From: Peptococcaceae bacterium BRH_c4a
GTDB taxonomy: Bacteria; Bacillota; Desulfotomaculia; Desulfotomaculales; Desulfocucumaceae
DNA length: 64,000 bases
Direction of reading: 5' to 3'
NCBI GenBank assembly: GCA_000961585.1
Contig: LADN01000070.1
Span: 62,001-126,000 of the forward strand
The notes under the pieces were generated by a model. That model saw only the letters and a list, made by a program, of their open reading frames with translations. It did not search any database and was not told the origin of the DNA. This document shows positions 7,699 through 50,822 of the stretch, one piece after another; the first letter of the stretch is position 1, and each line of letters starts with the position of its first letter. A program made the position numbers and the translations under genes.

Positions 7699-7706
7699 GA
7701 AAACTT

Positions 7707-8869: not shown

Positions 8870-8872
8870 GAT

Positions 8873-9769: not shown

Positions 9770-9839
9770 AAATTTACCTCCACTTTCTTAGATTTTTAAG
9801 TTAATCAGTTTTTAAGTTAACAATTTTTAAGTCAATAAT

Positions 9840-10019: not shown

Positions 10020-10078
10020 TCGGGAATATGCTCCTGGGGTAATATAGTATCTCAGCGATCACCACCTGCCTCTTTTTC

Positions 10079-25708: not shown

Positions 25709-26437
25709 TTAAGTGGTGCTCAAGATCAATACTATTTTGGTGTATACAATTCCCATGAAAATGATGAACAAAACCCCTGTTAAAGTACTGAACCTTATTT
25801 TGAACCTTTGCAGGGTAATTATGCCGCCGTTAAATCTTGCGCCTTCATTGGCGTCTTCAATTGCCGCCCCGGCCAGTTCCAGGAAAATCAACAGCAATAT
25901 CAGACAGAGAGACATTACCAGGCCAACATTTAATCCTTTTCCGGTTGCAAAGCTGCCATCATAGTGGGTAAAGGTGGCCATGGAGCTCATAACTGTTGTG
26001 GAAAACGAGGCAAATGAAATAAAGCTGCTTGCCACCTGGGGCGGGAATGAAGGTATGGAAACAATTTTTTCATAATTATTTACATCCGATGAGGTTTTAA
26101 CAGTAAAGCTAACCCTTTGGCCAATTTCAACCTGTGAATCATAAAGATACTGATAGGTCTTGGAGGATAGGGGATTGATACTGGCCTGCCCCTCCTTCAA
26201 CAAAACCCCGTCGACATAGAACTGGTAGTTTGTCACAAAATTGCTGAGACCCCGATTGTTCAACTGAAAAGTTACCAAAATGGGCTCACCCTGTCGAGGG
26301 GCTTCAGGCATAGCTGTAATGCGCACCGGCTCGTAGGTTTCCCTGATGCTGAGATAAAAGATACCAAGCAGGACCACGGCAAGCCATACCATAATTGTTT
26401 TGAAATAGGTTATCCTTTGCCATGCCTGTTTTCCCAT
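25709..26437 (-). CDS. Membrane protein with extracellular CARDB/Ig-like domain
   Basis: A 242-residue protein: an N-terminal transmembrane helix (about 14-32), an extracellular beta-sandwich of about 100 residues (RITAMPEAPRQGEPILVTF, NNRGLSNF, FYVDGVLLKEGQ), and two C-terminal helices (about 168-190 and 215-240). The outer domain resembles CARDB or DUF11 adhesin-type folds. It is the last gene of a leftward run that includes a CPBP membrane protease and the archaeosortase-like enzyme, with 16 bases to the CPBP gene, so it may be an accessory of that system (inference). No specific family is assigned. Confidence 0.6.
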   Translation of the reverse strand: MGKQAWQRITYFKTIMVWLAVVLLGIFYLSIRETYEPVRITAMPEAPRQGEPILVTFQLNNRGLSNFVTNYQFYVDGVLLKEGQASINPLSSKTYQYLYDSQVEIGQRVSFTVKTSSDVNNYEKIVSIPSFPPQVASSFISFASFSTTVMSSMATFTHYDGSFATGKGLNVGLVMSLCLILLLIFLELAGAAIEDANEGARFNGGIITLQRFKIRFSTLTGVLFIIFMGIVYTKIVLILSTT

Positions 26438-26453
26438 GAATATTCCCCTCTCA

Positions 26454-27323
26454 CTAGTTATTAAAAACGTGGGGGTATACGGCCACCAGAACCGTATTGT
26501 TGACCCCGTGGATCAATATGGATGTAAGTAAACTTCCGGTCCTTATGTAGAAATATCCAAAGATAAGCCCGGCCAAAAACACAAAAAACAGCTCAGGGAT
26601 TGATCGCCAGGTCAGGTGCATAATACCAAAAAGCAGCGATGTTCCCACCAACCCCCATTTCCATCCAAAAAGCCGGGTTAAATTCCGCTGAATCAAGCCC
26701 CTGAACAGCAACTCCTCCCCGAGACCCACAAAAAATACCATGTAAAACAGGTTCAGCAGTAAATATTTGATGGAAAAGTCGGGAGAAAAGGGAGCTGGCC
26801 TGAGTATTAAATACTCACACAAGCCCAGTGGAATACCGATGGTCCCGATTAGCACGTACGGAATTATTCTTTTCTTTTCAGGCATTCCCAAAATATCCCT
26901 GAGGCTCAACTCTTTCTGGAATATGTGGAGAAAGCACAGCCCCAAAATACAGGTGTAGACCGCCGGCAAAAGATATTGCTGGTTAATAAAAAACCAGGGC
27001 AGGGAAGAAGTGAACAATATATATAAGGGCACCAGCACTAGGGACTCGACGCTTTCCGTAAGCCCATCCTCCACCTTGCGAACAGCCAGGAATATGTAAA
27101 GCGACAATGTCAGCGCCAGGGAAAGTACAATTCCATGAGCCACATTCCTGTATGCAAAAATGTATTCGCAAAGAGCAATAGCCGCCATTATGCAGATAAT
27201 CAACAGACCCGACTGCTGCAGCCGGCGAACTTCCGACTGCCGGTTAGAAATCTCTGCACCACTGGTTAATACGTGTTCCATGCCACTCAATTCTTTATTC
27301 CCCTTTAAAATCCACCGGATCAT
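26454..27323 (-). CDS. CPBP-family intramembrane metalloprotease
   Basis: A 289-residue, eight-helix membrane protein with the CPBP/Abi (Rce1-like) motifs: EELLFRGLIQRNL (the paired Glu and Arg), LFGIMHLTWRS with the metal-binding His, and ILIHGVNNTVL with the second His. These enzymes cleave peptides within the membrane and act in CAAX processing, bacteriocin immunity or surface-protein maturation. It sits one base downstream of 27325-27735 and next to sorting-signal proteins with C-terminal helices, so a role in processing their tails is conceivable but unproved. Confidence 0.85.
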   Translation of the reverse strand: MIRWILKGNKELSGMEHVLTSGAEISNRQSEVRRLQQSGLLIICIMAAIALCEYIFAYRNVAHGIVLSLALTLSLYIFLAVRKVEDGLTESVESLVLVPLYILFTSSLPWFFINQQYLLPAVYTCILGLCFLHIFQKELSLRDILGMPEKKRIIPYVLIGTIGIPLGLCEYLILRPAPFSPDFSIKYLLLNLFYMVFFVGLGEELLFRGLIQRNLTRLFGWKWGLVGTSLLFGIMHLTWRSIPELFFVFLAGLIFGYFYIRTGSLLTSILIHGVNNTVLVAVYPHVFNN

Positions 27324-27324
27324 C

Positions 27325-27735
27325 CTATTTTAAATAATAAGTCAGTTTTTCAACCGGATCCGGCATATTGTTCCTGTAAATAAGATAGTTTACTTTTCCG
27401 TCAACGACATCTTCAGAAAAAATATGATGCGTAAAAACATACGCCCCGCCACCGGGTATTATAACCGATCCCCGGTAGGACGCCACGGTACCAAGCATCT
27501 CATGAATTTCGTAAGCGCTATTCTCTTCCTGCACATTCACCAGCTCAAACTGGATTGCCCATCCCTCTCTTTTTTTTATAACCTGCTCTTTTTGAACGGT
27601 GCTGTATTCCTTGCCGTTGGCCAGAGGCATGAAAAAAGCCATAACAAAAAGTACCCCCAGAGCCACCAATGACAGTAAGTAAATTACCCTGATCGGCGGC
27701 ATCTTCTTTTTACCCAAGTCATCTGGCCCTTGCAT
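27325..27735 (-). CDS. Single-pass membrane protein with extracellular domain
   Basis: A 136-residue protein with a cytosolic basic N terminus, one transmembrane helix (about residues 17-38) and an external beta-rich domain (for example GSVIIPGGGAYVFTHH). No family is recognised. Its stop is separated by a single base from the CPBP gene start and it lies 18 bases after the PEL-CTERM protein gene, so it is part of the same operon. The topology would suit a membrane-tethered partner of the sorting enzyme. Confidence 0.5.
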   Translation of the reverse strand: MQGPDDLGKKKMPPIRVIYLLSLVALGVLFVMAFFMPLANGKEYSTVQKEQVIKKREGWAIQFELVNVQEENSAYEIHEMLGTVASYRGSVIIPGGGAYVFTHHIFSEDVVDGKVNYLIYRNNMPDPVEKLTYYLK

Positions 27736-27753
27736 CGCTTACTCCTCTCCGGG

Positions 27754-28362
27754 TCATGCGGCCAAAATATCTTTTCCTTTATGCATCCTGTAGTAAATAA
27801 AGGCACAAATACCCGCCACGGCGATTCCTGTAATGCCTGCCGGCAATTCGGGTATGGCCGCTGCCTCCACAATAAAATTGCATCTCGCCTCAATATGTTT
27901 GGGGTTTTGTCCTTTTCCAGCCTCGGCTCGCCATTCCTGCGGAGATTCCCAACCCTTTATCTGATATGCTGCAATAAACCCTCCAGTTTCTTTGTCGGCC
28001 ATCACACCTATTGTGGCCACAAGAGAATCCTTCCCGTCGTATATATTGACCCAGTATTTTCCGTTCTTCTGCATATTGGTTCCAGTTATTCTTATTATGT
28101 CATGGCTGGCAGTGTATATGGGTTTTTCAGCCCGGATAGTGCCAGGGTCACCCTGTCTTTCCAATAGCTGGTGCTGTTGATCCTGCTGCTGGCTCTGGTC
28201 GTCTTCGCCCTGATCACCTTGGGTCTGGCCGGAGAATAAATCCGAATTTCCCGTTGGTTCGGCATAGGACGGCGGAACTATAGGGCTATTGACCGACAGC
28301 ATAAAAAAAGCGATACAGAAATAGCATATTAGCTTTTGTAGAATACTTCTTTTAATAAGCAA
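27754..28362 (-). CDS. Secreted protein with PEL-CTERM-type sorting tail
   Basis: A 202-residue protein starting at TTG 28362 after GAGAGGATG. It has a signal peptide (residues 1-34), a Gln-rich linker (about 45-70), then a beta-rich domain (ITGTNMQKNGKYWVNIYDG) and a C-terminal sorting signal: AIPELP, a hydrophobic helix of about 18 residues and a basic cluster YRMHKGK. The last 120 residues are clearly homologous to those of the SLH protein at 29605-31035. The three-part tail (motif, helix, basic cluster) is what exosortases and archaeosortases recognise, and a candidate enzyme is encoded immediately upstream. Confidence 0.75.
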   Translation of the reverse strand: MLIKRSILQKLICYFCIAFFMLSVNSPIVPPSYAEPTGNSDLFSGQTQGDQGEDDQSQQQDQQHQLLERQGDPGTIRAEKPIYTASHDIIRITGTNMQKNGKYWVNIYDGKDSLVATIGVMADKETGGFIAAYQIKGWESPQEWRAEAGKGQNPKHIEARCNFIVEAAAIPELPAGITGIAVAGICAFIYYRMHKGKDILAA

Positions 28363-28434
28363 TAATTATCATCCTCTCGATAATTTATTAAAATCACCCC
28401 CCATAGTCCGATTCAGATAACCCTGCGCATTTTT

Positions 28435-29274
28435 TCATGTGGGCTTTGCCAGGCTTTTTCTACCCACCTGCTTAAAATAGACAAAAGCAAAAACCAGATA
28501 CCAGACCGGAAACAAAATGTATATCGTCCAGAAATGGGCAGTCCAGAGGGCCTCTTCCCCGAAGTTATAGCCCATTCCTAAAATGATCAGTATCCGGATA
28601 AGACTCTGCAGCCACGTGCCAGCTACCCCGAAAGCGAAGATGCACACCGCCCTTTTTAGGGGAAGCGGCATATCCAGGTGCATTAAGGCGAACAGTCCCA
28701 GGAAAACCCCCATGGTGGTCGGCCCGGCACAGGCCGCAGTAACCATCACGGTAATGGAATCTCCTGTTAAAGTTAACATGTTAAGCAACTGATCATTAAC
28801 CCCCAGAGGCAAGCCCATAATCCAGGCGATAGCTTTCACCGGTACAACTGCGGTTTTGGCGTAGCCTGTTTCGGCATAGTTGGCTATGATTATAGGAAAT
28901 GTAGTGGCAGCCGTATATATCATTAATATTACCAGTGGAATTTTTGCCGCCCGGTCGTAAACAAGGGCGAAGGCCCCCGTTAGAACAAAGGCCAGCTTTA
29001 GTATTAAAAAATCCAGCTCAGCCGGCATAAAAACGGCTGCGGCAATCAGCACAACACCGCTGGTAATATATAAATGTTTTCCCCTGGAACCTGTCCGGAC
29101 AGCTTCTTCTTTTATTTCCTTCTTTTTGCTGAAAAGAAAAAGAGAGCACAGTACCAGCATTCCGCAGGGAGAGGCATGGTGTTCCCCAAATATAAAATCA
29201 TAAGAAAACATATTCATAATGCTGTCCCAGAATGAACTGTCAAAAGTTATCAAAACAGAAATTGAAATCAGCAT
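28435..29274 (-). CDS. Archaeosortase/exosortase-like transpeptidase
   Basis: A 279-residue protein with about eight transmembrane helices. The exosortase/archaeosortase catalytic triad can be read in the expected order and spacing: Cys182 in TAACAGPTTMG, Arg227 in SLIRILIILG and His247 in WTAHFW. Enzymes of this family cut a C-terminal sorting signal and attach the protein to a lipid or glycolipid. The two genes on either side encode proteins with matching PEF/PEL-type tails, making them the likely substrates. It has its own promoter block (29402-29546). The start is uncertain because no good ribosome site precedes the ATG. The system is unusual in Firmicutes. Confidence 0.75.
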   Translation of the reverse strand: MLISISVLITFDSSFWDSIMNMFSYDFIFGEHHASPCGMLVLCSLFLFSKKKEIKEEAVRTGSRGKHLYITSGVVLIAAAVFMPAELDFLILKLAFVLTGAFALVYDRAAKIPLVILMIYTAATTFPIIIANYAETGYAKTAVVPVKAIAWIMGLPLGVNDQLLNMLTLTGDSITVMVTAACAGPTTMGVFLGLFALMHLDMPLPLKRAVCIFAFGVAGTWLQSLIRILIILGMGYNFGEEALWTAHFWTIYILFPVWYLVFAFVYFKQVGRKSLAKPT

Positions 29275-29401
29275 CCATAAAAAAAAAATTCTGGGAAATG
29301 ATAAAGTTCAAACGAACCACCCTGCTATAAATACATTTCCATACCTTAGTTGCGGGCAATGCAACTATTTAATAATAACATTCTCAAATACATGCAATAA
29401 C

Positions 29402-29546
29402 ATAATACCATGCACAATTCACCTAAACAACATATATATACCGCAATTTATGTCGTTTTACTTAACATATTTATGTCATTAAAATACAAATATCCACATT
29501 TATTATTGAATCGTCGGTTTATGTCATGTTTATACCAAACTAATCC
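29402..29546 (-). promoter_or_regulatory. Promoter block B upstream of the sortase gene
   Basis: On the minus strand an extended -10 (TGG-TATTAT, 29402-29410) ends a region homologous to the block before the SLH gene (31181-31321). It contains three copies of TTTATGTCR on the plus strand (29447, 29470, 29518), probable activator or repressor sites. It starts right after the terminator at 29548-29582. Confidence 0.6.
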
Positions 29547-29547
29547 A

Positions 29548-29582
29548 CCAAAAAAATCCCCGGTAAAACCTGGGATTTTTTA
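29548..29582 (-). terminator. Terminator after the SLH/PEF-CTERM gene
   Basis: AAAAAATCCC and GGGATTTTTT flank a short GC-containing loop just downstream of the stop at 29605, with T-runs on both strands. It separates the SLH gene from the sortase gene, so the latter depends on its own promoter. Confidence 0.75.
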
Positions 29583-29604
29583 TGGTTTATTCATTGTCTC
29601 CCCG

Positions 29605-31035
29605 TCAAACCACCAAAGACTCTTTTCCTTGCTTCATTCTGTGGTATATAAAGACGCATATTCCCACCACGATAATCCCGGCAATAGCCGCCGGAAATTC
29701 CGGTATGGCCGACAGCGGCACAAAGAATGTGCAGCTTACCTCGGTGTGCTGAAGGTTTTGTCCTTTCAAGACATCTATCCGCCAGTTACCAGAAGCTTCA
29801 GTACCTTTTATGCTATAACTGGTGACAAACCCGCCGTTACTGTCAGCGTTGATACCTATTGTGCCCACATGGTTATTATCGCCATCATAAACCTGCAACC
29901 AGTAGCTGCCCTGTTTTTCCATGTTCTGTCCGGTTATATGAATTAACGGTGTCTGGACGCTACATGTAATCACCTGGTTCAACTTTTCCAGTAAACATAA
30001 GATTGCCGCATAGGCCTCAGCCCTCGTTAAAGTACTTTGGGACCTGAAGGTCTGGTCGGGATAACCCTGCATCATCCCTTCAAGTACCACTATCCTTACC
30101 TGATCTCTAAACCATGGAGCTATCTGTTCCGCATCGGTGAAATTTAGGTTTTCAGTTGCTCCGGCTGTGTTTTTACCTTTAAGCGCTTTTACCAGTATAC
30201 CGGCCATTTCCTGCCTGGTGATGGGTACGTCCGGGTCGAGCCTTCCTCCATATCCAAAAACCAGGCCGGCTTTGGCTGCCGCCTGCACGAACCCATAGTA
30301 CCAGGCCGACCTCTGTACATCTTCAAAAGCAGGTGGATCTGAAATAATCTCGGTAATACCAAGTGCCACTATAAGAATTCTGATGAATTCTGCCCTGGTT
30401 ATGTTTTCATCCGGGTTAAAAGTGTTATCGGGGTATTCGTTAATCATCCCCAGTCGACAGAGTTTGTATATGACGTCATGCACCCAGTGCGTCTTTGGCA
30501 AATCGTTAAAAACAATTTCTTTTGCTGTGGAAAATCTCCAGCTTGTTTCTCTGTTGTACACGGCGCCGCTTTTACTTCTCACTGTATTCCCGGGTATTGT
30601 TACAGTGTAATCGGTTTCGTACGCCAATCCTGAATGGCTAACCGTAAGCTTTCTTCCCGTCAAAGTCGAGTTAACACCGATTACGGCTTTGCCTTTATGA
30701 TCTTTAATGATGATTTTGGAAAGATCGACAGGGTCAACCTCCCTGTCCAGGGTGGCGGTTATTTGAATCTCCGGGGGCACTCCTTCAGCGTTTTTCCCAG
30801 GAAAATGATTCACAATGGTAGGGTAATTAAATACACTGTCCTGAAGGGTAGCCACCTGCACAGTTCCCCTGAAAATTTGTGACTGCCTTCCAATAGGTGA
30901 AGTTTGCTCGGACAAAGCCGCAGGGATCTCGGCTTCAGCAATGGAAGATGGCACAGTACCCGAAATGAGCAGGATCAGCAAAGCTGTACAAAAAAAGTAT
31001 ATTACCTTGAATAAAGATTTACCTTTAAAAAACAA
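29605..31035 (-). CDS. S-layer-homology protein with PEF-CTERM-type sorting tail
   Basis: A 476-residue exported protein. A signal peptide (1-34) is followed by a Big_5/SbsA-type Ig domain (about 75-170), three SLH repeats (about 175-345, for example FNDLPKTHWVHDVI and NTFNPDENITRAEF), a beta-rich domain shared with the protein at 27754-28362 (about 350-440) and a C-terminal tail: AIPEFP, a hydrophobic helix, and basic HRMKQGK. SLH repeats bind secondary cell-wall polymer, while the tail should be handled by the archaeosortase-like enzyme next door; having both anchors in one protein is unusual. Translation starts at TTG 31035 after GAGAGGGGGG. Confidence 0.85.
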   Translation of the reverse strand: MFFKGKSLFKVIYFFCTALLILLISGTVPSSIAEAEIPAALSEQTSPIGRQSQIFRGTVQVATLQDSVFNYPTIVNHFPGKNAEGVPPEIQITATLDREVDPVDLSKIIIKDHKGKAVIGVNSTLTGRKLTVSHSGLAYETDYTVTIPGNTVRSKSGAVYNRETSWRFSTAKEIVFNDLPKTHWVHDVIYKLCRLGMINEYPDNTFNPDENITRAEFIRILIVALGITEIISDPPAFEDVQRSAWYYGFVQAAAKAGLVFGYGGRLDPDVPITRQEMAGILVKALKGKNTAGATENLNFTDAEQIAPWFRDQVRIVVLEGMMQGYPDQTFRSQSTLTRAEAYAAILCLLEKLNQVITCSVQTPLIHITGQNMEKQGSYWLQVYDGDNNHVGTIGINADSNGGFVTSYSIKGTEASGNWRIDVLKGQNLQHTEVSCTFFVPLSAIPEFPAAIAGIIVVGICVFIYHRMKQGKESLVV

Positions 31036-31180
31036 TAATCATCCCCCCTCTCTTATTTTAAAAATAATCCTCCTCCTCTCACAAGTTTATGATTTCATTT
31101 ACCCTGGCCTGAATCATTCTTGAACATTAACCATAAATCCCATGACTTAAGGATGATGCAGCGCATAATCTTACAAAGAT
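31036..31180. other. Leader of the SLH/PEF-CTERM gene
   Basis: An untranslated region of about 140 bases lies between the -10 box at 31181 and the TTG start at 31035. It holds a polypurine run on the minus strand near the start codon (ribosome site) and no gene; no known riboswitch motif is recognised. Confidence 0.35.
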
Positions 31181-31321
31181 ATAATATCATACACAATTAT
31201 CCGAAACAACGAAATTTAACTGCAGTTAGTGTCGATTTACTTAATCTATTATGACATTAAAATCCATATATCCATATCATCCCGAACCAGCCATTTTGTC
31301 ATTTTATATCTAAACTAATCC
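31181..31321 (-). promoter_or_regulatory. Promoter block A upstream of the SLH/PEF-CTERM gene
   Basis: Homologous along about 140 bases to block B before the sortase gene. It has an extended -10 (TGA-TATTAT, 31181-31189) and three TTTATGTCR-like sites at 31226, 31248 and 31293 with nearly the same spacing as in block B. The remaining DNA to 31552 is A+T-rich and has no gene. Confidence 0.6.
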
Positions 31322-34535: not shown

Positions 34536-37337
34536 GTGAGGAAGTACGTAAGTTTTCAGGTATTGGTTTTAATCCTGTTGGCATTTATTCTGTTCGGCGT
34601 TGTTTTATTTAACGTGCCAACCAGAGCATCGGCCTACACCATTGACGACGCCATAACAAATCTGCAAAAGGTATATGACAAACTGAACCAGGACCCCGCC
34701 GGGAAGAGTGCAGTAATAACAGCCAAGTCCAATCTACAGAATATAACAGGGAACCCGGTCTCCGGACCCTGGCCGGGTGTTTTCAGTTATCTGTATAACG
34801 AAACAGTTAGAACAAAACTCCAATGCACAGAGCAGGAAGCAAAGCAAAAAATTATCGATTTTATCTGCGACCTTGCGGCAATGCAGTATACTTCCAACGC
34901 CACGGAATTGAGAAGCTACATGGAAAGTTTCAAGACGGAACATTCATCCACCGTAACCAAGCTCTTCGGAAACGATTTTACAGTGGATGACCTATGTAAC
35001 TATTTTCTTTCGGCCAAAAATCATATCCCGGGCGCCATCAGTCAAAGCCCGCAGGGCCTGCTGAACATCGCCATGGGCAACTACCTGCAGATACGGCAAC
35101 ACGAAAAAGAGTGGATTCGTAATGCCCTTAACGCTGCAGCCACCGGAAGGCACAGTACTTTCCCCGGTAAGCTCAGTGCCATAGGTTGGAGCATCGACAA
35201 GTTGGTTGACGCCAAGGACCAGGTCAGCAGCCATGTAGATCCCGGCTTTGTCGCTGAAATAGCCCTGATGAAGGCCTACATAAGGTCGGAGACAATGTTT
35301 ATCATAAACGGGAGCCCTCTGCCGCCGGGTTCGCCCATTGTTCTCACAAAGGGGACTTCGGTGCCCTGCACCCTTTCAATACTGGGTTTCTCCCAGGCCG
35401 GCCTAATTGCAAACTGGCTGACTGATAACACATCCGTCGCCAGGATTGAGAACCGCAATATTATAGCAGTCAACCCCGGCGCCACCCGGGTGATAGCCTA
35501 CAACCGGGACCCGGACAGTGAATGGGCCTTAATAGCTGCGGTAATTGTACCGGGGCCGCCCGGAAATGTATCCTTCACAGATAATGACCTGGACCCGGGT
35601 CAGTTGGGAGGCGCAATCACATTCTACAGCACTCCGGAAGAATCTGTCATAAGCAAGTACAGGGCCTATTTCCTTGATCAAGGCGGCAACCGCACGGGTG
35701 AAATAGGAGAAGTCAACAAAGGCCCCGCCAACAGGGATTCCAACGGAAGATACAGAATAACCGTCCCGGACAACACTGTAATGCCGGCACTTGCTGTAAA
35801 AATCGGCGTATACTCGGTAAACAACAATGAAATCGTCAGCGACCCGGCCACAACAACCATTATCGACTTAATCCGGGCTGGAACAGTCCAGAACGCCCCG
35901 GTAACAGTTAATGTGAATCAGCGGGAAAGCACACAGGGGGCTCTGGAAATAACGTCCGCCCCAACCGTTTCAGGCAGCACCGCAACATATACCCTGCCTG
36001 AAGTAAAAATAACATCCTCTACAAGTGCAGGCACTGTAGCAGTTGCCATTCCGCCAGGAACAACCATTTCTGGAGACACCTCGACATGGAGCGGGGTGAT
36101 CAATGTTCCCACCGTAGTTTCAAGAACGGAAGCCGAACTGGGTATCGGGCAAAACGCAGCGGTCCATTCAGTCATAGAGATTGGTTTCGGCGATGTACAA
36201 CTAACCCTAGGCAGTGCGGCCCGTATTCTATTAACAAATCAGGCGGGTAAAAGGGTGGGTTATTCCAGAAACGGTGTTTTTACGGAAATTACAACTGATT
36301 GCCAGGAAGATACCCAGGCCTGGGCTGATGCAAACCTGCCAGCAGGAGGAGATGGTAAGAAAGATGTCGGAAGCGACCTGGTGGTTTGGACGAAGCACTT
36401 TACCAGATTTGTAACCTTCAGTCAGAGTTCTTCATCCGGCGGGGGTGGCGGAGGCAGTTATTCGGCGCCGGGAGCGTCGGAATTATTCCCGGTAAAAGAC
36501 GCCCATGGTGTCGACCCGGATATCATAATCACCGCAACTTTTGATATGGACGTTGAGGTTGTGGATCTGTCAAAAATCACCATACAGGACTCCGTAGGCA
36601 ATAAGACCGGTGGTGTGACCACTATCCTGGACGGCAGAAAACTCATTATCAATCACGATAAACTTGCATACCTTACCAAATACACGGTAACGATACCCGG
36701 AAATGCTGTTAAAGGAAAAAGCGGCGGCAAATTCAACGATAAAATCAGCTGGAGCTTTACCACCCGGGATAAAGATATGAGTTTTAGTGATTTGCCAAAG
36801 ACCCACTGGGCACTGGAAGACATTAAAAAACTGTACCGGCTGGATATTATTCACGGCTACCCCGGCAACACCCTGCGACCGGAAGCCAGCATAACCCGGG
36901 CCGAGTTTGCGGTGATACTGGCAAAAGCCCTCGGCATTCCCGGGCGGGATTCCGGTGAGCCCGTCTTCCTGGACGTGCCGGATACGGCCTGGTATTTCGG
37001 ATGCGTTCAGGCCATGGCCAAGGCCGGCCTGGCAAAAGGTTTCGAAGGTAAATTCAGCCCGGGTGAACTCATCACCAGGCAGGAAATGGCTGTTATGCTG
37101 GCAAATGCGCTAAAAGGCAAGGGCGCTACGGCAACATTTGAAAGCATGGTATTTTCAGATGTGGATAAAATAGCCCCCTGGGCAAGAGATTCCATTGCCA
37201 GGGCAGTTAAAGAAGGGCTTATGCTGGGCTACCCCGACGGCTCCTTCGGACCCCAAGGATACGCCACCAGGGCCGAGGTCTGCTCCGTAACATGCCGGCT
37301 GCTGGACAAAAATAAAATTCCAGAATCCAAAATTTAG
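34536..37337 (+). CDS. Large S-layer-homology surface protein
   Basis: A 933-residue exported protein from GTG 34536 (GGAGGTAG upstream). A signal peptide ends near residue 33 (RASA). A helical domain (to about 240), a bacterial Ig-like domain (about 255-345), further beta domains, a Gly-rich linker (SSSGGGGGGSYS), a Big_5/SbsA-type domain (about 645-740) and three SLH repeats (about 745-920) follow. The Big_5 plus SLH block is homologous to that of 29605-31035, but this protein has no PEF-CTERM tail. It is probably an S-layer or outer-surface structural protein bound to cell-wall polymer. Confidence 0.88.
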   Translation: MRKYVSFQVLVLILLAFILFGVVLFNVPTRASAYTIDDAITNLQKVYDKLNQDPAGKSAVITAKSNLQNITGNPVSGPWPGVFSYLYNETVRTKLQCTEQEAKQKIIDFICDLAAMQYTSNATELRSYMESFKTEHSSTVTKLFGNDFTVDDLCNYFLSAKNHIPGAISQSPQGLLNIAMGNYLQIRQHEKEWIRNALNAAATGRHSTFPGKLSAIGWSIDKLVDAKDQVSSHVDPGFVAEIALMKAYIRSETMFIINGSPLPPGSPIVLTKGTSVPCTLSILGFSQAGLIANWLTDNTSVARIENRNIIAVNPGATRVIAYNRDPDSEWALIAAVIVPGPPGNVSFTDNDLDPGQLGGAITFYSTPEESVISKYRAYFLDQGGNRTGEIGEVNKGPANRDSNGRYRITVPDNTVMPALAVKIGVYSVNNNEIVSDPATTTIIDLIRAGTVQNAPVTVNVNQRESTQGALEITSAPTVSGSTATYTLPEVKITSSTSAGTVAVAIPPGTTISGDTSTWSGVINVPTVVSRTEAELGIGQNAAVHSVIEIGFGDVQLTLGSAARILLTNQAGKRVGYSRNGVFTEITTDCQEDTQAWADANLPAGGDGKKDVGSDLVVWTKHFTRFVTFSQSSSSGGGGGGSYSAPGASELFPVKDAHGVDPDIIITATFDMDVEVVDLSKITIQDSVGNKTGGVTTILDGRKLIINHDKLAYLTKYTVTIPGNAVKGKSGGKFNDKISWSFTTRDKDMSFSDLPKTHWALEDIKKLYRLDIIHGYPGNTLRPEASITRAEFAVILAKALGIPGRDSGEPVFLDVPDTAWYFGCVQAMAKAGLAKGFEGKFSPGELITRQEMAVMLANALKGKGATATFESMVFSDVDKIAPWARDSIARAVKEGLMLGYPDGSFGPQGYATRAEVCSVTCRLLDKNKIPESKI

Positions 37338-37692: not shown

Positions 37693-38922
37693 ATGATTTA
37701 TGATGTGGTTGTTATAGGAGGAGGGCCGGTCGGCTGCTTTACCGCAGCGGAAATCGCAAAAAACGGCCTCAAAGTATTAGTGGTTGAAGAACACAAAAAA
37801 ATAGGTAATCCGGTGCAGTGCGCCGGATTGGTTTCACCCCGCACCATGGCGCTGGCCTCTGCCCCCAAAGACCTGGTTATGAATGAATACAGCAGCGCAA
37901 GGATACTATCCCCTCTGGGAGGCGAACTTTTGATTGAGGGTGACAGGGTTCACGCCCAGGCGATAAACAGGGCGGCCTTCGACAGGCACATGGCCAGCCA
38001 GGCTCTGGAGACCGGCGCAGAAATAATAACCTCGGCCAGGGCCACAAAAATCTACGCCCTCCCCGAAGGTTTCACGGTGACGGTGAGCGCAGCCGGTAAA
38101 ACACATTTCGTTGACTGCAGGCTTTTAATCGGCGCGGACGGTGTAAACTCCAGGGTCTCCCGGTGGCTCGGACTACAGCAGGTTAATCAAAAAGTCTACA
38201 TGTACGCCGGGGATTTTGAGCTGTCAGATCCCAACCCCGGCGAGGTGACCGTACTGCTGGGACAAAGCTACTCCCCGGGCTGGTTCGGCTGGATTATACC
38301 GCTGGACGGCAGGACCGCCCGGGTAGGCGTAGGCAGTATTTACAATGACAAATCCTCCAGGCATTACCTCAAAAGCATGATCAGACACTTTCCCTCCAGG
38401 TTCAAGAATTTTAAGGAATTAAGGTATACCGGAGGCTCAGTTCCCTTTAGCATCATGAAAAAGATATATTCCTCCCACGCCATGCTGGTGGGGGACGCTG
38501 CCGCCCAGACCAAGCCCATGTCCGGCGGAGGTATATACACCGGACTAAGGAGCGCGCAAATCTGCTCCCGGGTGGCCGTAAGGGCCCTCATGGAAGACAG
38601 GCTTCATGATGCATCCCTCTACGAGTACCAGTCACTCTGGAACAAGGAATTTCGCTCTGAATTCCGGTCCGGCCTAAAGCATAGGGAGGTCTACAACAGC
38701 ATGAGCGACCGGGAAATAGAAAGCCTGCTCAGTTTCCTGGACCGCCCGTACTGGCGCAGTCTCATTGCCGGCCACGGAGACATTGACTACCCCTCCTGGC
38801 TGGCCCGCCGCCTCTTTAGCGCTGGGCCGTGGGTACAAAAGTTTGCGTTGGCGGCGGTGGAGTTGACTGGTTATAGGGAAAGGCTTAGGAGAGATACTAA
38901 AGATCTAAAAGCAACACCATAA
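37693..38922 (+). CDS. Geranylgeranyl-reductase-family flavoprotein
   Basis: A 409-residue FAD enzyme with the N-terminal dinucleotide motif VVVIGGGPVGCFTAAEIA, the conserved GNPVQCAGLVSPR segment with its Cys, a second FAD motif RLLIGADGVNSRVSRWLG, and GDAAAQTKPMSGGGIYTGL near residue 275, all diagnostic of the geranylgeranyl reductase family. These enzymes saturate isoprenoid double bonds, for example in archaeal lipids, menaquinone side chains or polyprenol carriers. Placement at the head of a polysaccharide cluster suggests it reduces the lipid carrier (inference). AGGTAATTAAGT precedes the ATG. Confidence 0.9.
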   Translation: MIYDVVVIGGGPVGCFTAAEIAKNGLKVLVVEEHKKIGNPVQCAGLVSPRTMALASAPKDLVMNEYSSARILSPLGGELLIEGDRVHAQAINRAAFDRHMASQALETGAEIITSARATKIYALPEGFTVTVSAAGKTHFVDCRLLIGADGVNSRVSRWLGLQQVNQKVYMYAGDFELSDPNPGEVTVLLGQSYSPGWFGWIIPLDGRTARVGVGSIYNDKSSRHYLKSMIRHFPSRFKNFKELRYTGGSVPFSIMKKIYSSHAMLVGDAAAQTKPMSGGGIYTGLRSAQICSRVAVRALMEDRLHDASLYEYQSLWNKEFRSEFRSGLKHREVYNSMSDREIESLLSFLDRPYWRSLIAGHGDIDYPSWLARRLFSAGPWVQKFALAAVELTGYRERLRRDTKDLKATP

Positions 38923-38951
38923 ATCTAATCTATATGTGGAGTTGATAATGA

Positions 38952-39671
38952 ATGACCGTTAACCAATTAGTTACTAGTTGGGATAGCAATCAACTAAATC
39001 TTAATGGACATAAGGTAACAATTCTCTTATGTACATTAAATGAAGAAAAAAATCTCCCTTATATCTTACCCCTTCTGCCCCCCTTTGCGGATGAAATACT
39101 CATTGTCGACGGCCATTCAAAGGATAATACCGTAAAAGTTGCAAAAAGTATTCTGCCAAAAGCTCGCATTTTATTTCAACCGGGCAAGGGTAAAGGGGAT
39201 GCTTTAAGGTACGGAATCCAAGAAGCAAAAGGTGACATTATAGTCATGCTGGATGCTGACGGTTCAATGGCACCGGGTGAAATACCCAGATTTATTGAGC
39301 CATTGCTGAATGGTTATGACTTTGTAAAAGGCTCTCGCTTCCTCCCAGGTGGGGGAACAGTGGATATGTCAAAGCACAGGGTTTTTGGTAACTGGGTTTT
39401 CACGACTCTGACTAATGTATTCCATCGTTGCAAATATACTGATCTTTGTTATGGTTACAATGCCTTTTGGAAAAGGTCCTTCACATCGGTGAATTTTAAA
39501 GGAAATGGGTTTGAAGTTGAAACAGAAATAAATATAAAAATAAAAAAATCAGGGTTAAAGGTAGCAGAAGTGCCCAGTTATGAATCAGAACGGATTAACG
39601 GTGAGGGAAAATTACATAGCTTAAAAGATGGCTGGCGCATTTTATCTACAATATTTAAGGAAGTAGTCTAA
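38952..39671 (+). CDS. Family 2 glycosyltransferase (dolichol-phosphate-mannose-synthase-like)
   Basis: A 239-residue GT-A enzyme with TILLCTLNEEKNL at the nucleotide-binding start, EILIVDGHSKDNT, MLDADGSMAPGEI (the DxD metal site) and a KGSRFLPGGG stretch. It lacks membrane helices. Enzymes of this type move a sugar from a nucleotide donor to a polyprenyl phosphate or start a glycan. It begins the A+T-rich part of the polysaccharide cluster, 29 bases after the reductase gene. Confidence 0.9.
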   Translation: MTVNQLVTSWDSNQLNLNGHKVTILLCTLNEEKNLPYILPLLPPFADEILIVDGHSKDNTVKVAKSILPKARILFQPGKGKGDALRYGIQEAKGDIIVMLDADGSMAPGEIPRFIEPLLNGYDFVKGSRFLPGGGTVDMSKHRVFGNWVFTTLTNVFHRCKYTDLCYGYNAFWKRSFTSVNFKGNGFEVETEINIKIKKSGLKVAEVPSYESERINGEGKLHSLKDGWRILSTIFKEVV

Positions 39672-39734
39672 AAAAGTTAAGAGAGCTAACATATCAGGTT
39701 TAGCCAAGATATTACACAAAGTAGGTATGTAAAC

Positions 39735-40850
39735 TTGAAAATATTATTGATTCCCTGTGAAAAACCCAATCACCCATACGCAGATGTGAGACTTGTACCG
39801 ATTATACCCATTCTCAAATCCAGAGGTAATGTCGTTGGATTGGAGTTTATACATTCAGCAAGCTTTGAAACTGTAAGAAATTTCTCCCTTTCAAAACTCA
39901 GAGGATATTTTTCACTAGCTGGTTATTTAGTTAAGTCACTCTACTTTGGGCTTCGTCACATGAGAACTATAGATTTAATATTCTGTGAGCATTTATATTG
40001 TGCAGTTATCGGTGTATGCTTATCTTTTCTGGGAAATAAGCCATTTATTTGGGACAGTCATGGCAATTTAACTGCTGCCAGCAAAGAAATGGAAGATCCC
40101 AAAATATATACGAAAATATTGAACTACACAGAGCATCTAATTCACAACCACTGTAATATGCTTGTCGTTCCAACTGAGCTTGATAAAGAATTGTATTTGT
40201 CCCAAGGTTTTAGAAATGATCGAATCCGGGTAATACCGTGCGGGGTAAACTTATCTGAAGTTGATAGCGCAATACAGGATACTCACAATATTCGCAAAGA
40301 CCTCGGCCTAGATCATTCAACTCCGTTATTGATATTCACCGGTAAAAGAACATATCTACCCAATAAAGAGGCAGCTTGGTGGATTAATGACGTTCTTGCG
40401 CCATCAATAAAAGAAAGTTTCGGTAAAGTTAAAATTATTATTACCGGTTCTGGCGAAACCCCTAAAATAACCCATGAAAGCGTAGAGTTCGTTGGTTTTG
40501 TCCAAAATATTTTTAAATACATACATGCTGCAGATATTTGTCTTGTGCCAGTACATCTGGATAATGGTATTTCAACAAAACTGCTGGACTTCATGGCATG
40601 TGGGAAGCCTTCTGTTGTTCTGTCTACTGTCGCAAGGGGAATGCCTGAAATTGAGGATAATAAAAATGTATTACTGGCCGATGATCTAGATGGCTATATA
40701 AAAAGGACAATCGAGGCATTGATGATGGGAAAAAACCAGATTGATAAAATTGGACTTGCTGCTAGACAAGTCATTGAAAGGCTCTATAACTGGGAGACTA
40801 TTAAAAATAGATGGTCCGCTCTACTTGATGAACTAATAAGTAAGGGGTGA
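39735..40850 (+). CDS. Family 4 glycosyltransferase
   Basis: A 371-residue GT-B enzyme starting at TTG 39735 with GTAGG upstream. The C-terminal nucleotide-sugar domain is clear: VIPCGVNLSEVD, LIFTGKRTYLPNKEAAWW, IIITGSGETPKI, FVGFVQNIFKYIHAADICL and the E-x-rich loop replaced by LDNGISTKLLDFMACGKP. The N-terminal acceptor domain is less conserved. It transfers a sugar to the growing glycan on the cytosolic side. The following gmd frame opens directly after its TGA. Confidence 0.9.
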   Translation: MKILLIPCEKPNHPYADVRLVPIIPILKSRGNVVGLEFIHSASFETVRNFSLSKLRGYFSLAGYLVKSLYFGLRHMRTIDLIFCEHLYCAVIGVCLSFLGNKPFIWDSHGNLTAASKEMEDPKIYTKILNYTEHLIHNHCNMLVVPTELDKELYLSQGFRNDRIRVIPCGVNLSEVDSAIQDTHNIRKDLGLDHSTPLLIFTGKRTYLPNKEAAWWINDVLAPSIKESFGKVKIIITGSGETPKITHESVEFVGFVQNIFKYIHAADICLVPVHLDNGISTKLLDFMACGKPSVVLSTVARGMPEIEDNKNVLLADDLDGYIKRTIEALMMGKNQIDKIGLAARQVIERLYNWETIKNRWSALLDELISKG

Positions 40851-40856
40851 GTTGAT

Positions 40857-41915
40857 ATTAAAAAGCGAGCATTAATTACAGGTATAACGGGGCAAGATGG
40901 AGCATATCTTGCAAAGTTTTTGCTTGAAAAAGGATACCATGTTTTTGGGACATACAGACGGCTATCTACGCCCAATTTCTGGAGATTGCAGTTTTTAAAC
41001 ATTTTCGACGAAGTTAATTTAATATCTGCAGATCTGTTAGATTCACCTTCCATATTCGAAGCCATAATTACTTCTCAACCAAATGAAATTTATCACCTTG
41101 CTGCCCAGAGCTTTGTAGGTGCATCTTTTGAACAACCAATCGCCACAGGTGAGGTTACAGGGTTGGGTGTAGTCCGTTTACTGGAGGCTGTAAAAAAAAT
41201 CAACCCTGAAATTCGTATATACCAGGCCTCCACCAGTGAACTATACGGCAACGGATCTGAAAAACCAATGAGTGAAGCTTCACCTTTTTGTCCATCAAGT
41301 CCCTATGCGGCTTCCAAGCTATATAGTTATTGGATCAACAAGATTTACCGTGAAGGGTATAACATGTTCACATGTAACGGTATCCTTTTTAACCATGAGT
41401 CACCAATACGCGGGTTAGAATTTGTCACTCGCAAAATATCCAACGGAGTAGCTAGAATTGCCCTGGGGTTGGATAACGAACTTTCGCTGGGCAATATTGA
41501 AGCCAAAAGAGATTGGGGATATGCCCCCGAATATGTCGAGGCAATGTGGAGAATTCTGCAGCAGGATGAACCGGACGACTATGTTATAGCTACAAACGAA
41601 ACACACTCTGTTAAGGAGTTCTTAACCAAAGCTTTTGAATATGTTAATCTTGAATGGGAAAAGCACGTAAAAATTGACGGAAAATTGCACAGGCCCCTTG
41701 ATGTCAAATATCTGCAGGGAGACTACACAAAATCCTCCGAAATACTTGGCTGGAACCCATTGACAAAATTTAACCGGTTAGTAGAAATAATGGTTCATGC
41801 AGACTTAAAGCGCTGGGAAATGTGGCTTAAAGGTGAAAAATTCCCATGGGATGCGCCATTTTACCCAAACGATAACAAAATTATACCTAGGACATGGAGA
41901 TTGGAGAGAAGATAA
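40857..41915 (+). CDS. gmd: GDP-mannose 4,6-dehydratase with probable ATT start
   Basis: An NDP-sugar short-chain dehydrogenase with the NAD(P) motif TGITGQDGAYLAKFLL, catalytic STSELYG, Tyr-x3-Lys in SPYAASKLYSYW, and the GMD-type segments FNHESPIRGLEFVTRKI and AKRDWGYAPEYVEAMW. It converts GDP-mannose to GDP-4-keto-6-deoxymannose. No ATG, GTG or TTG exists between the upstream TGA (40848-40850) and the nucleotide-binding motif; ATT at 40857 lies 8 bases after AAGGGGTG and gives the family's usual N terminus (IKKRALITG). A later TTG at 40920 would remove the binding motif. Product feeds the aminotransferase at 42990. Confidence 0.85.
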   Translation: MKKRALITGITGQDGAYLAKFLLEKGYHVFGTYRRLSTPNFWRLQFLNIFDEVNLISADLLDSPSIFEAIITSQPNEIYHLAAQSFVGASFEQPIATGEVTGLGVVRLLEAVKKINPEIRIYQASTSELYGNGSEKPMSEASPFCPSSPYAASKLYSYWINKIYREGYNMFTCNGILFNHESPIRGLEFVTRKISNGVARIALGLDNELSLGNIEAKRDWGYAPEYVEAMWRILQQDEPDDYVIATNETHSVKEFLTKAFEYVNLEWEKHVKIDGKLHRPLDVKYLQGDYTKSSEILGWNPLTKFNRLVEIMVHADLKRWEMWLKGEKFPWDAPFYPNDNKIIPRTWRLERR

Positions 41916-41917
41916 AG

Positions 41918-42316
41918 TTGATTGAAAAGATTGGATATAATGGTGAACTATTTGCAATTATTATACGCTGCAGCTTCTCACCTAAAGGAACTAGCTTTAT
42001 AACATCTAATGACAATTTTCTCCAAGTTGGCGTATTTGTTCATGAACAAGGAAAACAAATAACACCTCATTTTCATAAAGAGTTTGCACGCTCAATAAAC
42101 CTCACGCAGGAAGTATTACATTTGGAATATGGCAAGATTGAAGCCTCTTTTTTTAAAGAAGGAAAAGAAGTGGCAAAATCTGTCTTGTCTGGAGGAGATA
42201 CTATTATACTTTTAAACGGCGGCCATGGCTTCAATGCACTAGAGGAAACTAAAATGATTGAAGTAAAACAGGGGCCGTATAGTGGTCATGATAAAGATAA
42301 AGAGATGATTTTTTAA
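41918..42316 (+). CDS. Cupin-fold protein (WbuC/RmlC-like)
   Basis: Start placed at TTG 41918, two bases after the gmd stop, with GGAG about 10 bases upstream; the ATG at 41894 lies inside gmd. The 132-residue protein is a single cupin beta-barrel with metal-ligand-type His in ITPHFHKEF and a GGDTIILLNGGHGF strand. Cupins in polysaccharide loci epimerise or isomerise nucleotide sugars, or are structural. Its place between gmd and the aminotransferase suggests action on a keto-deoxysugar (inference). Confidence 0.7.
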   Translation: MIEKIGYNGELFAIIIRCSFSPKGTSFITSNDNFLQVGVFVHEQGKQITPHFHKEFARSINLTQEVLHLEYGKIEASFFKEGKEVAKSVLSGGDTIILLNGGHGFNALEETKMIEVKQGPYSGHDKDKEMIF

Positions 42317-42336
42317 TAGCTCGGGGAGAATTTACT

Positions 42337-42972
42337 ATGTGGATACCGGAAGCGTTCAGAAGGGGTTTGCACGTTTTAAAAACTGAAGGTTGCTATCACC
42401 TTTTCAAGGCGGTTTACTCACATTTGTATTGTGATGAAACATATTTTCTATACATGAAAGCCTTAGATGGAAACTCACCTGTATTATCAATAAACCTCAT
42501 GGACGGAATGGAATTAATATTAATTAACAGCACAGATCAGTACACTAAACTACTAGATAGTGGTTTTGACTTTAAAAACACGATTTTCCGTAAAAGACTA
42601 AAAACATCTTGCAAGGCCTTTTGCTTATTTGAAAATAAGCAGCTTGCCCATGTAACTTGGATTGCTCTTAATAATGACGGGAAAAAAGAAATAGATTATC
42701 TTCCCTTCAAAGTAGATTTTGATAATGGGGAGATTTGTTCAGGAGCTTCGTATACTGAACCTAAGTATCGGGGAAAAGGACTTTTAAGCTATACATACGC
42801 TGCGATCTTTTCCTACCTCGACGAAATAGGAATAACAAAAGACATATTCACTATTAACGTAAATAACCTTCCTTCAAATAAAGCACATTCAAAATTTAAT
42901 CCGTCAATAATTGGCAAATACCGTTACCTGAAAATTACACTTTGGGAGAGATGGGTTAAAATAGAAAATTAA
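42337..42972 (+). CDS. GNAT-family acetyltransferase
   Basis: A 211-residue protein with an acetyl-CoA-binding motif (YRGKGLLSYTYAAIF) and the following N-x2-S-N-x-A-H-x-K segment (NNLPSNKAHSKF) typical of GNAT enzymes. The N-terminal 90 residues are less conserved and may bind acceptor. It lies just before a perosamine-synthase-like aminotransferase, so N-acetylation of the amino sugar (as done by PerB-type enzymes) is a reasonable inference. A GGGGAGAA site precedes the ATG. Confidence 0.75.
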   Translation: MWIPEAFRRGLHVLKTEGCYHLFKAVYSHLYCDETYFLYMKALDGNSPVLSINLMDGMELILINSTDQYTKLLDSGFDFKNTIFRKRLKTSCKAFCLFENKQLAHVTWIALNNDGKKEIDYLPFKVDFDNGEICSGASYTEPKYRGKGLLSYTYAAIFSYLDEIGITKDIFTINVNNLPSNKAHSKFNPSIIGKYRYLKITLWERWVKIEN

Positions 42973-42989
42973 TTGTGAGGAGTAGCAGT

Positions 42990-44105
42990 ATGATACCAGT
43001 ATGTGAACCTCTTATTAACAACAATGAATTGAATAATGTTATGGACTGTGTAAAATCCAATTGGGTCTCCTCTATGGGAAAATACATAGAAGTATTTGAG
43101 GAGGGTTTTTCCCATTATTGCGGATGCAAGTACGGAATTAGCACAACTAGCGGAACGACTGCTCTGCATCTAGCGCTTGCTGTTCTTAATATTGGGCCAG
43201 GAGACGAGGTAATAGTACCCACCTTCACGATGGCTGCTACCGTATTTGCAATACTTTATACCGGCGCCAAACCTGTGTTTGTTGATTCTGAGCCAGATAC
43301 GTGGAACATCAACCCATTTAAAATTGAAGAGAAAATAACTAATAAAACAAAAGTCATCCTCCCAGTTCATATTTATGGTCATCCCTGTGACATGAATTTA
43401 ATTAACAGTTTAGCAAAAAAATATAACCTTTTCGTTATTGAAGATGCGGCCGAAGCTCATGGAGCAGAATATTTTGGCCGGAAGGCTGGTTCCCTTAGTG
43501 ACATCGGGTGCTTCAGTTTTTATGCCAATAAGATCATCACTACCGGAGAAGGGGGAATGATTGTAACAAATAACGAAGAGTTTGCCAGGAAGGCTCGACT
43601 GCTTAAGAACCTGGCTTTTCTTCCAGAAAAAAGATTTGTTCATTTAGATATAGGCTATAACTACAGAATGACCAATATTCAAGCCGCTATTGGGGTGGCT
43701 CAATTAGAAAAAATAGATTATTTAGTTGAAGCGCGCAGACGCAACGCAAAGATGTATATCAATCTATTATCCGAACAACCCGGGATCACATTACCTATTG
43801 AGCTGGAAAATGTTAAAAATGTGTACTGGATGTTTGGAATACTATTAACTGATAGGTCTGGCACCACAAGGAACAGTTTAATGTCGGAGCTTCGGAAAAG
43901 GGGAATTGAAACCAGAACATTTTTTTACCCCATTCATTCCCAACCAGCAATAAAGGATATGGGTTATACCCCTAATGAAAGCTTTCCTGTGGCAGATTCT
44001 TTGGCAGAAAGAGGTTTGTACCTCCCTTCCGGGTCAGGGCTAACTGCAGAACAAATAGCTTATGTTTGTGACACCGTTAAGGAGATAAATTATTTATATG
44101 AGTAA
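42990..44105 (+). CDS. DegT/DnrJ/EryC1 aminotransferase (GDP-perosamine-synthase-like)
   Basis: Start at ATG 42990 with GAGGAG 8 bases upstream. The 371-residue PLP enzyme has the family traits TTSGTTALHLAL, EDAAEAHGAEY, FSFYANKIITTGEGGM (Lys that binds PLP) and NYRMTNIQAAIGVAQL. The start IPVCEPLINNNEL matches perosamine synthases, which aminate GDP-4-keto-6-deoxymannose, the product of the Gmd enzyme encoded upstream. The cluster thus probably makes a perosamine-type residue. The next gene overlaps by 8 bases. Confidence 0.9.
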   Translation: MIPVCEPLINNNELNNVMDCVKSNWVSSMGKYIEVFEEGFSHYCGCKYGISTTSGTTALHLALAVLNIGPGDEVIVPTFTMAATVFAILYTGAKPVFVDSEPDTWNINPFKIEEKITNKTKVILPVHIYGHPCDMNLINSLAKKYNLFVIEDAAEAHGAEYFGRKAGSLSDIGCFSFYANKIITTGEGGMIVTNNEEFARKARLLKNLAFLPEKRFVHLDIGYNYRMTNIQAAIGVAQLEKIDYLVEARRRNAKMYINLLSEQPGITLPIELENVKNVYWMFGILLTDRSGTTRNSLMSELRKRGIETRTFFYPIHSQPAIKDMGYTPNESFPVADSLAERGLYLPSGSGLTAEQIAYVCDTVKEINYLYE

Positions 44106-45216
44106 AATGGACATTTGTTTAATAACTGGCACACCCCCAACGAACATACTTATTGAAAAACTAATCTCAGTCTTAAGACCTATAGTTACCAAAATGGTTG
44201 TCATTACCGGCAATATGGCGGATGATAACTCACTAGACATTAATACAAAAATAGTTAATGTAGGCTGGGAGCATCCTAAGGGGCTTTTATTTACTTTAGT
44301 TAACAATATATTTTTACAACTAAGATACAGTTATCATATTTTAGTAAAGGCAAGAAACATTAAAACAATAATATATTTTCTTGGAGGCAGTGCATTTCCA
44401 TTACCCATTATAATATCTCGTTTTATGAGAAAAAGAATTTATCTTATAGTTACTCATTCGACTTCCCAAATAGCAAAAAGAATTTATCCTAACTTTGCCA
44501 TATCGTTAATTACTCGATCTTTAGAACGCCTCAACTATTATTTATGTCACCAGTTAATTGTATATTCCCCTAACATGACTAAAGACATGGGATTGGAACT
44601 ATACCGCAACAAAACAGTCATAGCTTATGAACACTTTGTGGACTTCTCTCTCTTTTACAAGAATAAAGAAGTTACTCAGCGTAAATATTCAATAGGTTAT
44701 GTTGGGAGGTTAAGCGAGGAAAAAGGCATTTTCAACCTCCTTAATGCCATGTTGCTGCTACCTCCTGAACTAAACTTGATTGTTTGCGGTGATGGAGGAC
44801 TTAGGGGCTCTGTTGAAGAGTATATCCAGGCTAATAGGCTGAATGACCGGGTGAAACTAACCGGATGGATTGATAACAAGTGTTTACCGCACTTTTTAAA
44901 TGATATGAAAATATTAATAATCCCTTCTTATACGGAAGGACTGGCCAACATAATGTATGAGGCTATGGCATGCGGAACTCCTGTGTTGGCTTCTCCCGTC
45001 GGTGCTATTCCTGACTTTGTACGTAATGGAGAAACCGGTTTTTTACTTAAATCAAACAAACCAGAAGACATTGCAAGCGGATTACTCAAGGCCTTAAATT
45101 CCCCAAAACTGCAGGAAATAGTATATAACTCAATAGCGCTTACCCATGAATTTTTTTCTATTGAAAAAGCTATAGAGAGATACCGTAGTGTTCTGGAAAA
45201 CAACCATGGAGATTAA
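44098..45216 (+). CDS. Family 4 glycosyltransferase
   Basis: A 372-residue GT-B enzyme. The C-terminal domain has SIGYVGRLSEEKGIFNLL, LIVCGDGGLRGSVEEYI, VKLTGWIDNKCLPHFL and the E-x7-E catalytic motif EGLANIMYEAMACGTPV. The N-terminal half is hydrophobic in places, suggesting membrane association. Its ATG overlaps the aminotransferase stop. It adds a sugar to the repeat unit; donor and linkage are not determined. Confidence 0.92.
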   Translation: MSKMDICLITGTPPTNILIEKLISVLRPIVTKMVVITGNMADDNSLDINTKIVNVGWEHPKGLLFTLVNNIFLQLRYSYHILVKARNIKTIIYFLGGSAFPLPIIISRFMRKRIYLIVTHSTSQIAKRIYPNFAISLITRSLERLNYYLCHQLIVYSPNMTKDMGLELYRNKTVIAYEHFVDFSLFYKNKEVTQRKYSIGYVGRLSEEKGIFNLLNAMLLLPPELNLIVCGDGGLRGSVEEYIQANRLNDRVKLTGWIDNKCLPHFLNDMKILIIPSYTEGLANIMYEAMACGTPVLASPVGAIPDFVRNGETGFLLKSNKPEDIASGLLKALNSPKLQEIVYNSIALTHEFFSIEKAIERYRSVLENNHGD

Positions 45217-45217
45217 A

Positions 45218-46891: not shown

Positions 46892-46916
46892 CATAGTTTA
46901 AGGAGGAAAGCGAAAA

Positions 46917-50820: not shown

Positions 50821-50822
50821 AA

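Follow-up and report, generated by a model that had tools for sequence, protein, structure and literature searches.

A candidate exosortase-type sorting system with a CPBP-family partner in Peptococcaceae bacterium BRH_c4a

Exosortases have been studied mostly in Gram-negative bacteria with exopolysaccharide, and archaeosortases have been studied in archaea. Here, we describe a locus of a Firmicute, Peptococcaceae bacterium BRH_c4a, within a 64-kb stretch of contig LADN01000070.1 (the window; all coordinates are positions in this whole stretch). The locus encodes an exosortase/archaeosortase-family enzyme (28435-29274), two exported proteins that share a C-terminal tail, a CPBP-family protease, and two further membrane proteins. 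We consider it likely that this locus is a dedicated exosortase-type C-terminal sorting (transpeptidation) system, which serves one to three surface proteins and has CPBP as its constant partner. This view is based on the gene content, the conserved catalytic residues of both proteases, the co-occurrence of tail and enzyme, and the inheritance of the genes as a unit.

Several described systems share features with this locus. Archaeosortase C (ArtC) with PEF-CTERM (TIGR03762/TIGR03024), found in archaea, belongs to the same fold family and has the same C-R-H order and the same succession of PEF signature, transmembrane helix, and basic cluster. However, the window enzyme has CAGP where ArtC has CSGL and falls in a separate clade. 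Its type of tail has a fixed Cys and Tyr in the helix, and the system also occurs in bacteria and is linked to CPBP, a CARDB-like protein, a small protein, and a beta module. XrtG (TIGR03110), known from Gram-positive bacteria, likewise represents the exosortase family in Firmicutes, but XrtG-like genes adjoin a glycosyltransferase gene and we saw no PE[FL]P-tailed neighbor there. The second exosortase of this genome is XrtG-like (G000:C66:9763-9984, L006; G and L numbers are our labels for genomes and loci). It is found with a glycosyltransferase, and its neighbors differ from those of the window enzyme. At the catalytic Cys position, the XrtG-like proteins have ESSG (Ser) in L005 and L006 and ECSG in L004. 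Exosortase E/VPEID-CTERM (TIGR04162) and pepcterm_CAAX (CAAX prenyl protease-related, TIGR03008) also link an exosortase to a CPBP-type protease, but the window system has separate genes, a different tail, and two extra conserved membrane proteins. The window CPBP reached 30.2 of the 150 bits required by TIGR04162 and 29.7 of the 81 bits required by TIGR03008. The myxosortases MrtX, MrtP, and MrtS, with MYXO-CTERM or Synerg-CTERM, share a CPBP glutamic protease and a Cys in surface protein tails; unlike in those systems, the Cys here is within the helix and an exosortase is always present. Lastly, sortase A/LPXTG follows the same logic of a tripartite tail and a Cys transpeptidase, but its enzyme fold and signature are unrelated. 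No subfamily model in NCBIfam (June 2026) was reached by the enzyme, CPBP, or the tail. We found no paper on such an exosortase system in Peptococcaceae or Chloroflexi in a search of mostly nonsubscription literature.

The enzyme is a polytopic protein of 279 residues with the motifs TAACAGPTT, SLIRI, and TAHFW. The original prediction, made from the DNA letters, had placed Cys182-Arg227-His247 in this protein, and both its coordinates and its motifs were right. The protein scores above the cut-offs of PF09721 (36.0 bits; cut-off, 25.7) and TIGR04178 (32.3 bits; cut-off, 23). Conservation of the three residues in close homologues had been set beforehand as a test. We found that all three are invariant in an alignment of 14 distinct enzymes from Firmicutes, Chloroflexi, and archaea, the homologues being 33-45% identical to the window enzyme. 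The AlphaFold2 (AF2) model is mostly helical (mean predicted local distance difference test [pLDDT] score, 84), and fold comparison with the PDB gave no useful match (best E, 0.55). Judged by its sequence, the product is a member of the exosortase/archaeosortase family. Such enzymes are expected to have cognate exported proteins with a signature-transmembrane-basic tail in the same genome, and this genome has two.

The two exported proteins are encoded on either side of the enzyme gene. As predicted, their C-terminal regions are homologous modules (54% identity across 109 residues; E, 5e-36) ending in an AIPE[FL]P tail; the tails are AIPELPAGITGIAVAGICAFIYYRMHKGKDILAA in the 27754-28362 protein and AIPEFPAAIAGIIVVGICVFIYHRMKQGKESLVV in the 29605-31035 protein. 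A search for further module or tail proteins returned these two alone, and the genome (3.49 Mb; completeness, 100%) yielded no third copy of the module. This survey combined pattern and module searches, which a tail lacking Cys or Tyr and lacking the module could escape. A six-frame scan of the window for PEF-, PEP-, PGF-, and LPXTG-type tails gave none beyond the two. Homologues of the substrates have this tail as well and are encoded beside the enzyme. None of the three outcomes named beforehand as refuting the original prediction was seen. Across the cassette substrates, the tail consists of AIPE[FL][PS], a hydrophobic helix with Cys-x3-Tyr (Tyr is rarely Phe), and then basic residues; the Cys is missing in L026. 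Its spacing is gapless and constant in Firmicutes, Chloroflexi, and archaea, with the Cys inside the helix about 14 residues after PE. A module of about 110 residues precedes the tail and is predicted by AF2 to be a beta-sandwich followed by a helix. Structure comparison with the module model gave generic beta-sandwich (Ig/FN3-like) matches, none at an E of 0.001 or better. Each cassette genome has one to three clear module-plus-tail proteins, except G118, which has a weak match alone. The pairing with SLH proteins pointed out in the original prediction recurs in L011, but it is one of several substrate architectures, and other loci have other exported proteins. In L051 (Chloroflexi; G113:C144:7386-7481), the tail is on a protein with a nuclease/phosphatase-like C terminus (PSDHAGI) and an apparently absent module. 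The window also has a second SLH/Big_5 protein, at 34536-37337 on the opposite strand, without a sorting tail.

Tail and enzyme occur together. Among 113 genomes of the order, a clear full-length enzyme homologue was present in just two others (40-44% identity). Matches to a tail DNA pattern that were in frame and hydrophobic occurred at five places, in exactly the three enzyme-bearing genomes, and none occurred in the 110 genomes without the enzyme. The remaining matches across the order were discarded as out-of-frame or nonhydrophobic chance matches. We then looked further with a profile of three enzyme sequences, which was needed because a genome-contig scan with the window enzyme as a single sequence found no relatives. 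Scanning 84,980 species genomes with this profile yielded 13 loci from Peptococcaceae/Clostridiales, Chloroflexi/Dehalococcoidia (several from groundwater), and archaea labeled Methanophagales, Methanosarcinales, and Candidatus Argoarchaeum. The enzyme was found in 11 of 393 genomes of the class of the Dehalococcoidia locus; in the Argoarchaeum class, 17 of 238 genomes gave matches.

The genes and features named in the original prediction were confirmed, and its reading as an enzyme flanked by dedicated substrates was supported, but the unit is larger than described. In 14 loci or genomes, several with short contigs, CPBP was found in all 14, whereas the CARDB-like protein, the small protein, and an adjacent substrate were each found in 11; in G021, CPBP is on a different contig from the full-length enzyme. 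The pairwise distances of the four cassette proteins correlate (r, 0.76-0.92; Mantel P of 0.001 or less), with an r of 0.90 for exosortase against CPBP. Therefore, the cassette has been inherited together. The DNA sequence from 8944 to 10956 of L015 (Chloroflexi) places enzyme and substrate in one open frame of 670 residues, a putative fusion or assembly error. Beside the cassette of L013, a 63-residue remnant of the enzyme C terminus is present (9099-9290), while the full-length gene of G021 is on another contig.

Maximum-likelihood analysis placed all 14 enzymes in a single clade (100/99), separate from ArtC, from other archaeosortases, and from XrtG. Against TIGR03762 (cut-off, 100), the nearest named subfamily, the window enzyme scores 30.7 bits and its family about 29-40, whereas true ArtC proteins of the archaeal order mostly score 251-288. 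Against XrtG (TIGR03110; cut-off, 102.75), it scores 16.0 bits. Deeper relatives of the enzyme mostly retain CPBP and the CARDB-like and small proteins and have PEF-like tails without Cys at that place. The tail type (Cys or no Cys) requires one change on the enzyme tree, on a branch of moderate support (87/75), and none of 500 shuffles gave as low a number. Tail type follows one enzyme clade, as cognate enzyme-tail pairs would be expected to do. The archaea with Cys tails are nested among Chloroflexi (89/86), a placement which suggests transfer between domains.

The features of the locus are listed in Table 1. The genes for the enzyme, substrate 2, the small protein, CPBP, and the CARDB-like protein are packed on the minus strand with gaps of 1-72 bases. 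A terminator-like hairpin with a T run lies downstream of the SLH substrate gene, which is probably its own transcription unit, split from the enzyme operon, as read from the sequence. By PF02517 and its three motifs, the 26454-27323 product is a CPBP glutamic intramembrane protease; its residues E203, E204, R208, F232, H236, H272, and N276 are invariant in 14 homologues. The small protein has about 130 residues, and 7 of 10 members of its family weakly match DUF1616. The 25709-26437 protein matches CARDB with 16.5 bits, below the cut-off. These three partners, the in-helix Cys and Tyr, and the hairpin go beyond the original prediction.

Table 1. Features of the sorting locus (window positions)
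Feature	Position	Strand	Evidence
Exosortase/archaeosortase-family enzyme; Cys182, Arg227, His247; CAGP motif	28435..29274	-	PF09721, TIGR04178, triad conservation, AF2 model
Substrate 1: signal peptide, Big_5, three SLH domains, membrane-proximal module, sorting tail	29605..31035	-	Pfam SLH 119.6 bits, Big_5 53.3 bits
Substrate 1 sorting tail: AIPEFP, transmembrane helix with Cys and Tyr, basic end	29608..29709	-	Alignment, genome pattern scan
Substrate 1 membrane-proximal beta-sandwich module and tail	29614..29937	-	Module comparison; homologues in three phyla
Substrate 2: small exported protein, signal peptide, module, tail	27754..28362	-	Module comparison; AF2 beta-sandwich and C-terminal helix
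Substrate 2 sorting tail: AIPELP, transmembrane helix with Cys and Tyr, basic end	27757..27858	-	Alignment, pattern scan
Substrate 2 membrane-proximal module and tail	27757..28089	-	Module comparison, AF2 model
Small accessory membrane protein: N-terminal hydrophobic segment, extracytoplasmic domain; weakly like DUF1616	27325..27735	-	Beside enzyme in 11/14 loci
CPBP (Rce1-like) glutamic intramembrane protease; EExxxR, FxxxH, HxxxN	26454..27323	-	PF02517 80.2 bits; in 14/14 cassette loci/genomes
CARDB-like accessory membrane protein: N-terminal hydrophobic segment, beta domain, C-terminal hydrophobic segments	25709..26437	-	Homologues in 11/14 loci
Terminator-like hairpin, substrate 1/enzyme operon boundary	29550..29580	-	AAAAATCCCAGG-TTTT-ACCGGGGATTTTTT, read directly; scan match at 29559 on +

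The region from 29274 to 29311 before the annotated ATG of the enzyme contains a T10 tract (29279-29288), possibly a homopolymer error or a site of transcriptional slippage. Upstream, a TTG at 29311 with a Shine-Dalgarno-like GGGTGG is in another frame across the tract. With one T fewer, the enzyme N terminus would read MNFIISQNFFLW-MLISISV, similar in length to the N termini of homologues.

From exosortase and sortase biology, we infer the catalysis, the cleavage site, and the acceptor as follows, and we also propose roles for CPBP and the accessory proteins. Sec would export both substrates, and the tail helix would arrest and retain each of them with AIPE[FL]P at the outer face of the membrane. 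Cys182, assisted by Arg227 and His247, would attack the tail near this motif. The enzyme would then free the transmembrane-basic tail and join the new C terminus to an acceptor; the likeliest candidates are membrane lipids and lipid-linked glycans. CPBP probably takes away the tail peptide or processes it further. Outside the cytoplasm, the small and CARDB-like proteins probably make up a docking part for the beta-sandwich module, which they would recognize. The archaeal cassettes adjoin genes that read as glycosyltransferase-like, UDP-N-acetylglucosamine (UDP-GlcNAc) 2-epimerase-like, and polysaccharide deacetylase-like, and a glycan cluster (37693-52547) lies about 6.7 kb from the window cassette. 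These neighbors point, though not conclusively, to a glycan or lipid-linked acceptor.

Some observations weigh against this sorting system as we propose it. The tail of the 29605-31035 protein scores 13.0 bits against PEF-CTERM model TIGR03024, below its cut-off of 23, and the 27754-28362 protein does not match it. The window SLH substrate could be anchored by its SLH domains without the tail. We did not find the CARDB-like protein in L017, L019, and L021 or the small protein in L019, L021, and L022, where some contigs are short; because of this, the accessory proteins may not be essential. CPBP also accompanies Cys-less tails (L026, L151, L152, and archaeal L156-L162).

This last point bears on what CPBP does. 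A specific form of the proposed system is that there are two sequential cuts, one by the exosortase at PE[FL]P outside the membrane and one by CPBP within the membrane at or near the Cys, which clears the remnant. In its favor, the two proteases strictly occur together and have diverged in parallel (r, 0.90), and a model of an exosortase E fused to a CPBP domain is known (TIGR04162). However, contact of CPBP with the tail is presumed, and related cassettes do without the Cys. We hold this form only tentatively. It is possible, though we would not count on it, that a two-protease machine exists in which exosortase and CPBP, with two extracytoplasmic docking subunits, act on one C-terminal tail that is recognized by way of the beta module and the in-helix Cys, and that it moved as a unit between bacteria and methane- and alkane-cycling archaea.

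Alternatively, CPBP could itself cut the tail in the manner of a myxosortase, at a site adjoining a lipidated tail Cys, with C-x-x-x-Y forming a CaaX-like box inside the helix. CPBP is in all 14 cassettes with intact EExxxR, FxxxH, and HxxxN, MrtP, MrtS, and Mrt_core are among the named models nearest to it, and the Cys is at a fixed spacing in all tails of one clade. There is also a precedent, as MrtX cleaves MYXO-CTERM adjacent to its invariant Cys (PMC11980579). However, CPBP is found just as regularly with Cys-less tails, the Cys here is deep in the helix while that of MYXO-CTERM precedes it, and the exosortase triad is strictly conserved. We rejected membership in a named myxosortase group, as all Mrt models were under cut-off (Mrt_core NF040914, 47.1 versus 100 bits), and in MYXO-CTERM, given the Cys position and its absence in related cassettes. 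The Cys-less tails likewise weakened the in-helix Cys as a CPBP target. Therefore, we consider CPBP more likely to act as a partner, for instance by clearing the cut tail, and we regard a myxosortase-like role as improbable.

It is very unlikely that the enzyme has no sorting function or works in another pathway, such as polysaccharide export. The glycan cluster and the uncertain enzyme start at the T10 tract would fit this, but the triad is intact, the substrates are adjacent and conserved, and the cassette is kept as a unit in three phyla. We give hardly any credence to acquisition of an archaeosortase C/PEF-CTERM system from archaea, even though ArtC is matched by all 14 enzymes and is the best named subfamily for the window enzyme and, among named tail models, PEF-CTERM comes nearest (matched by 4 of 11 modules; best E, 0.0011), since the enzyme is far under the ArtC cut-off and the scores of true ArtC, forms a separate clade, and has CAGP, not CSGL. 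Thus, the "PEF-CTERM-type" of the original prediction holds for the layout of the tail but not for membership: it is a resemblance, because the enzyme is not archaeosortase C and the tails are under the PEF-CTERM cut-off.

Peptococcaceae, Chloroflexi, and archaea of the anaerobic methanotrophic (ANME) type have a single gene set in common, which comes with a tail type of its own. A 2017 survey described ANME-1 as without PEF-CTERM domains and archaeosortases A and C (PMC5244752); in contrast, a Methanophagales genome (L016) carries a cassette-type exosortase, which is of an unnamed type. The system is also relevant to how the cell surfaces of deep-subsurface and methane-cycling microbes are built. 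Being small, with one enzyme and two substrates in the window, it suits tests of which moiety an exosortase joins to its substrates. The constancy of CPBP as a partner suggests that a second intramembrane protease may take part in exosortase processing.

Several neighboring genes were also observed. Next to the glycan cluster is a DUF1616 protein (53797-54636; 285 bits) with a partial second copy (56207-56518). L013 and the archaeal loci L153 and L155 have a DUF1616-like protein beside a second CPBP gene, which may represent a sister system. In the 2297-10405 region of L018 (Peptococcaceae nzgw226), the cassette is flanked by apparent genes for a [NiFe]-hydrogenase large subunit and cytochrome b on one side and for a hydrogenase maturation protease on the other. 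A Fur-family-like regulator adjoins the cassette in three Chloroflexi loci (L014, 5366-5782; L015, 10960-11406; and L022, 7204-7812), which hints at metal- or stress-dependent expression.

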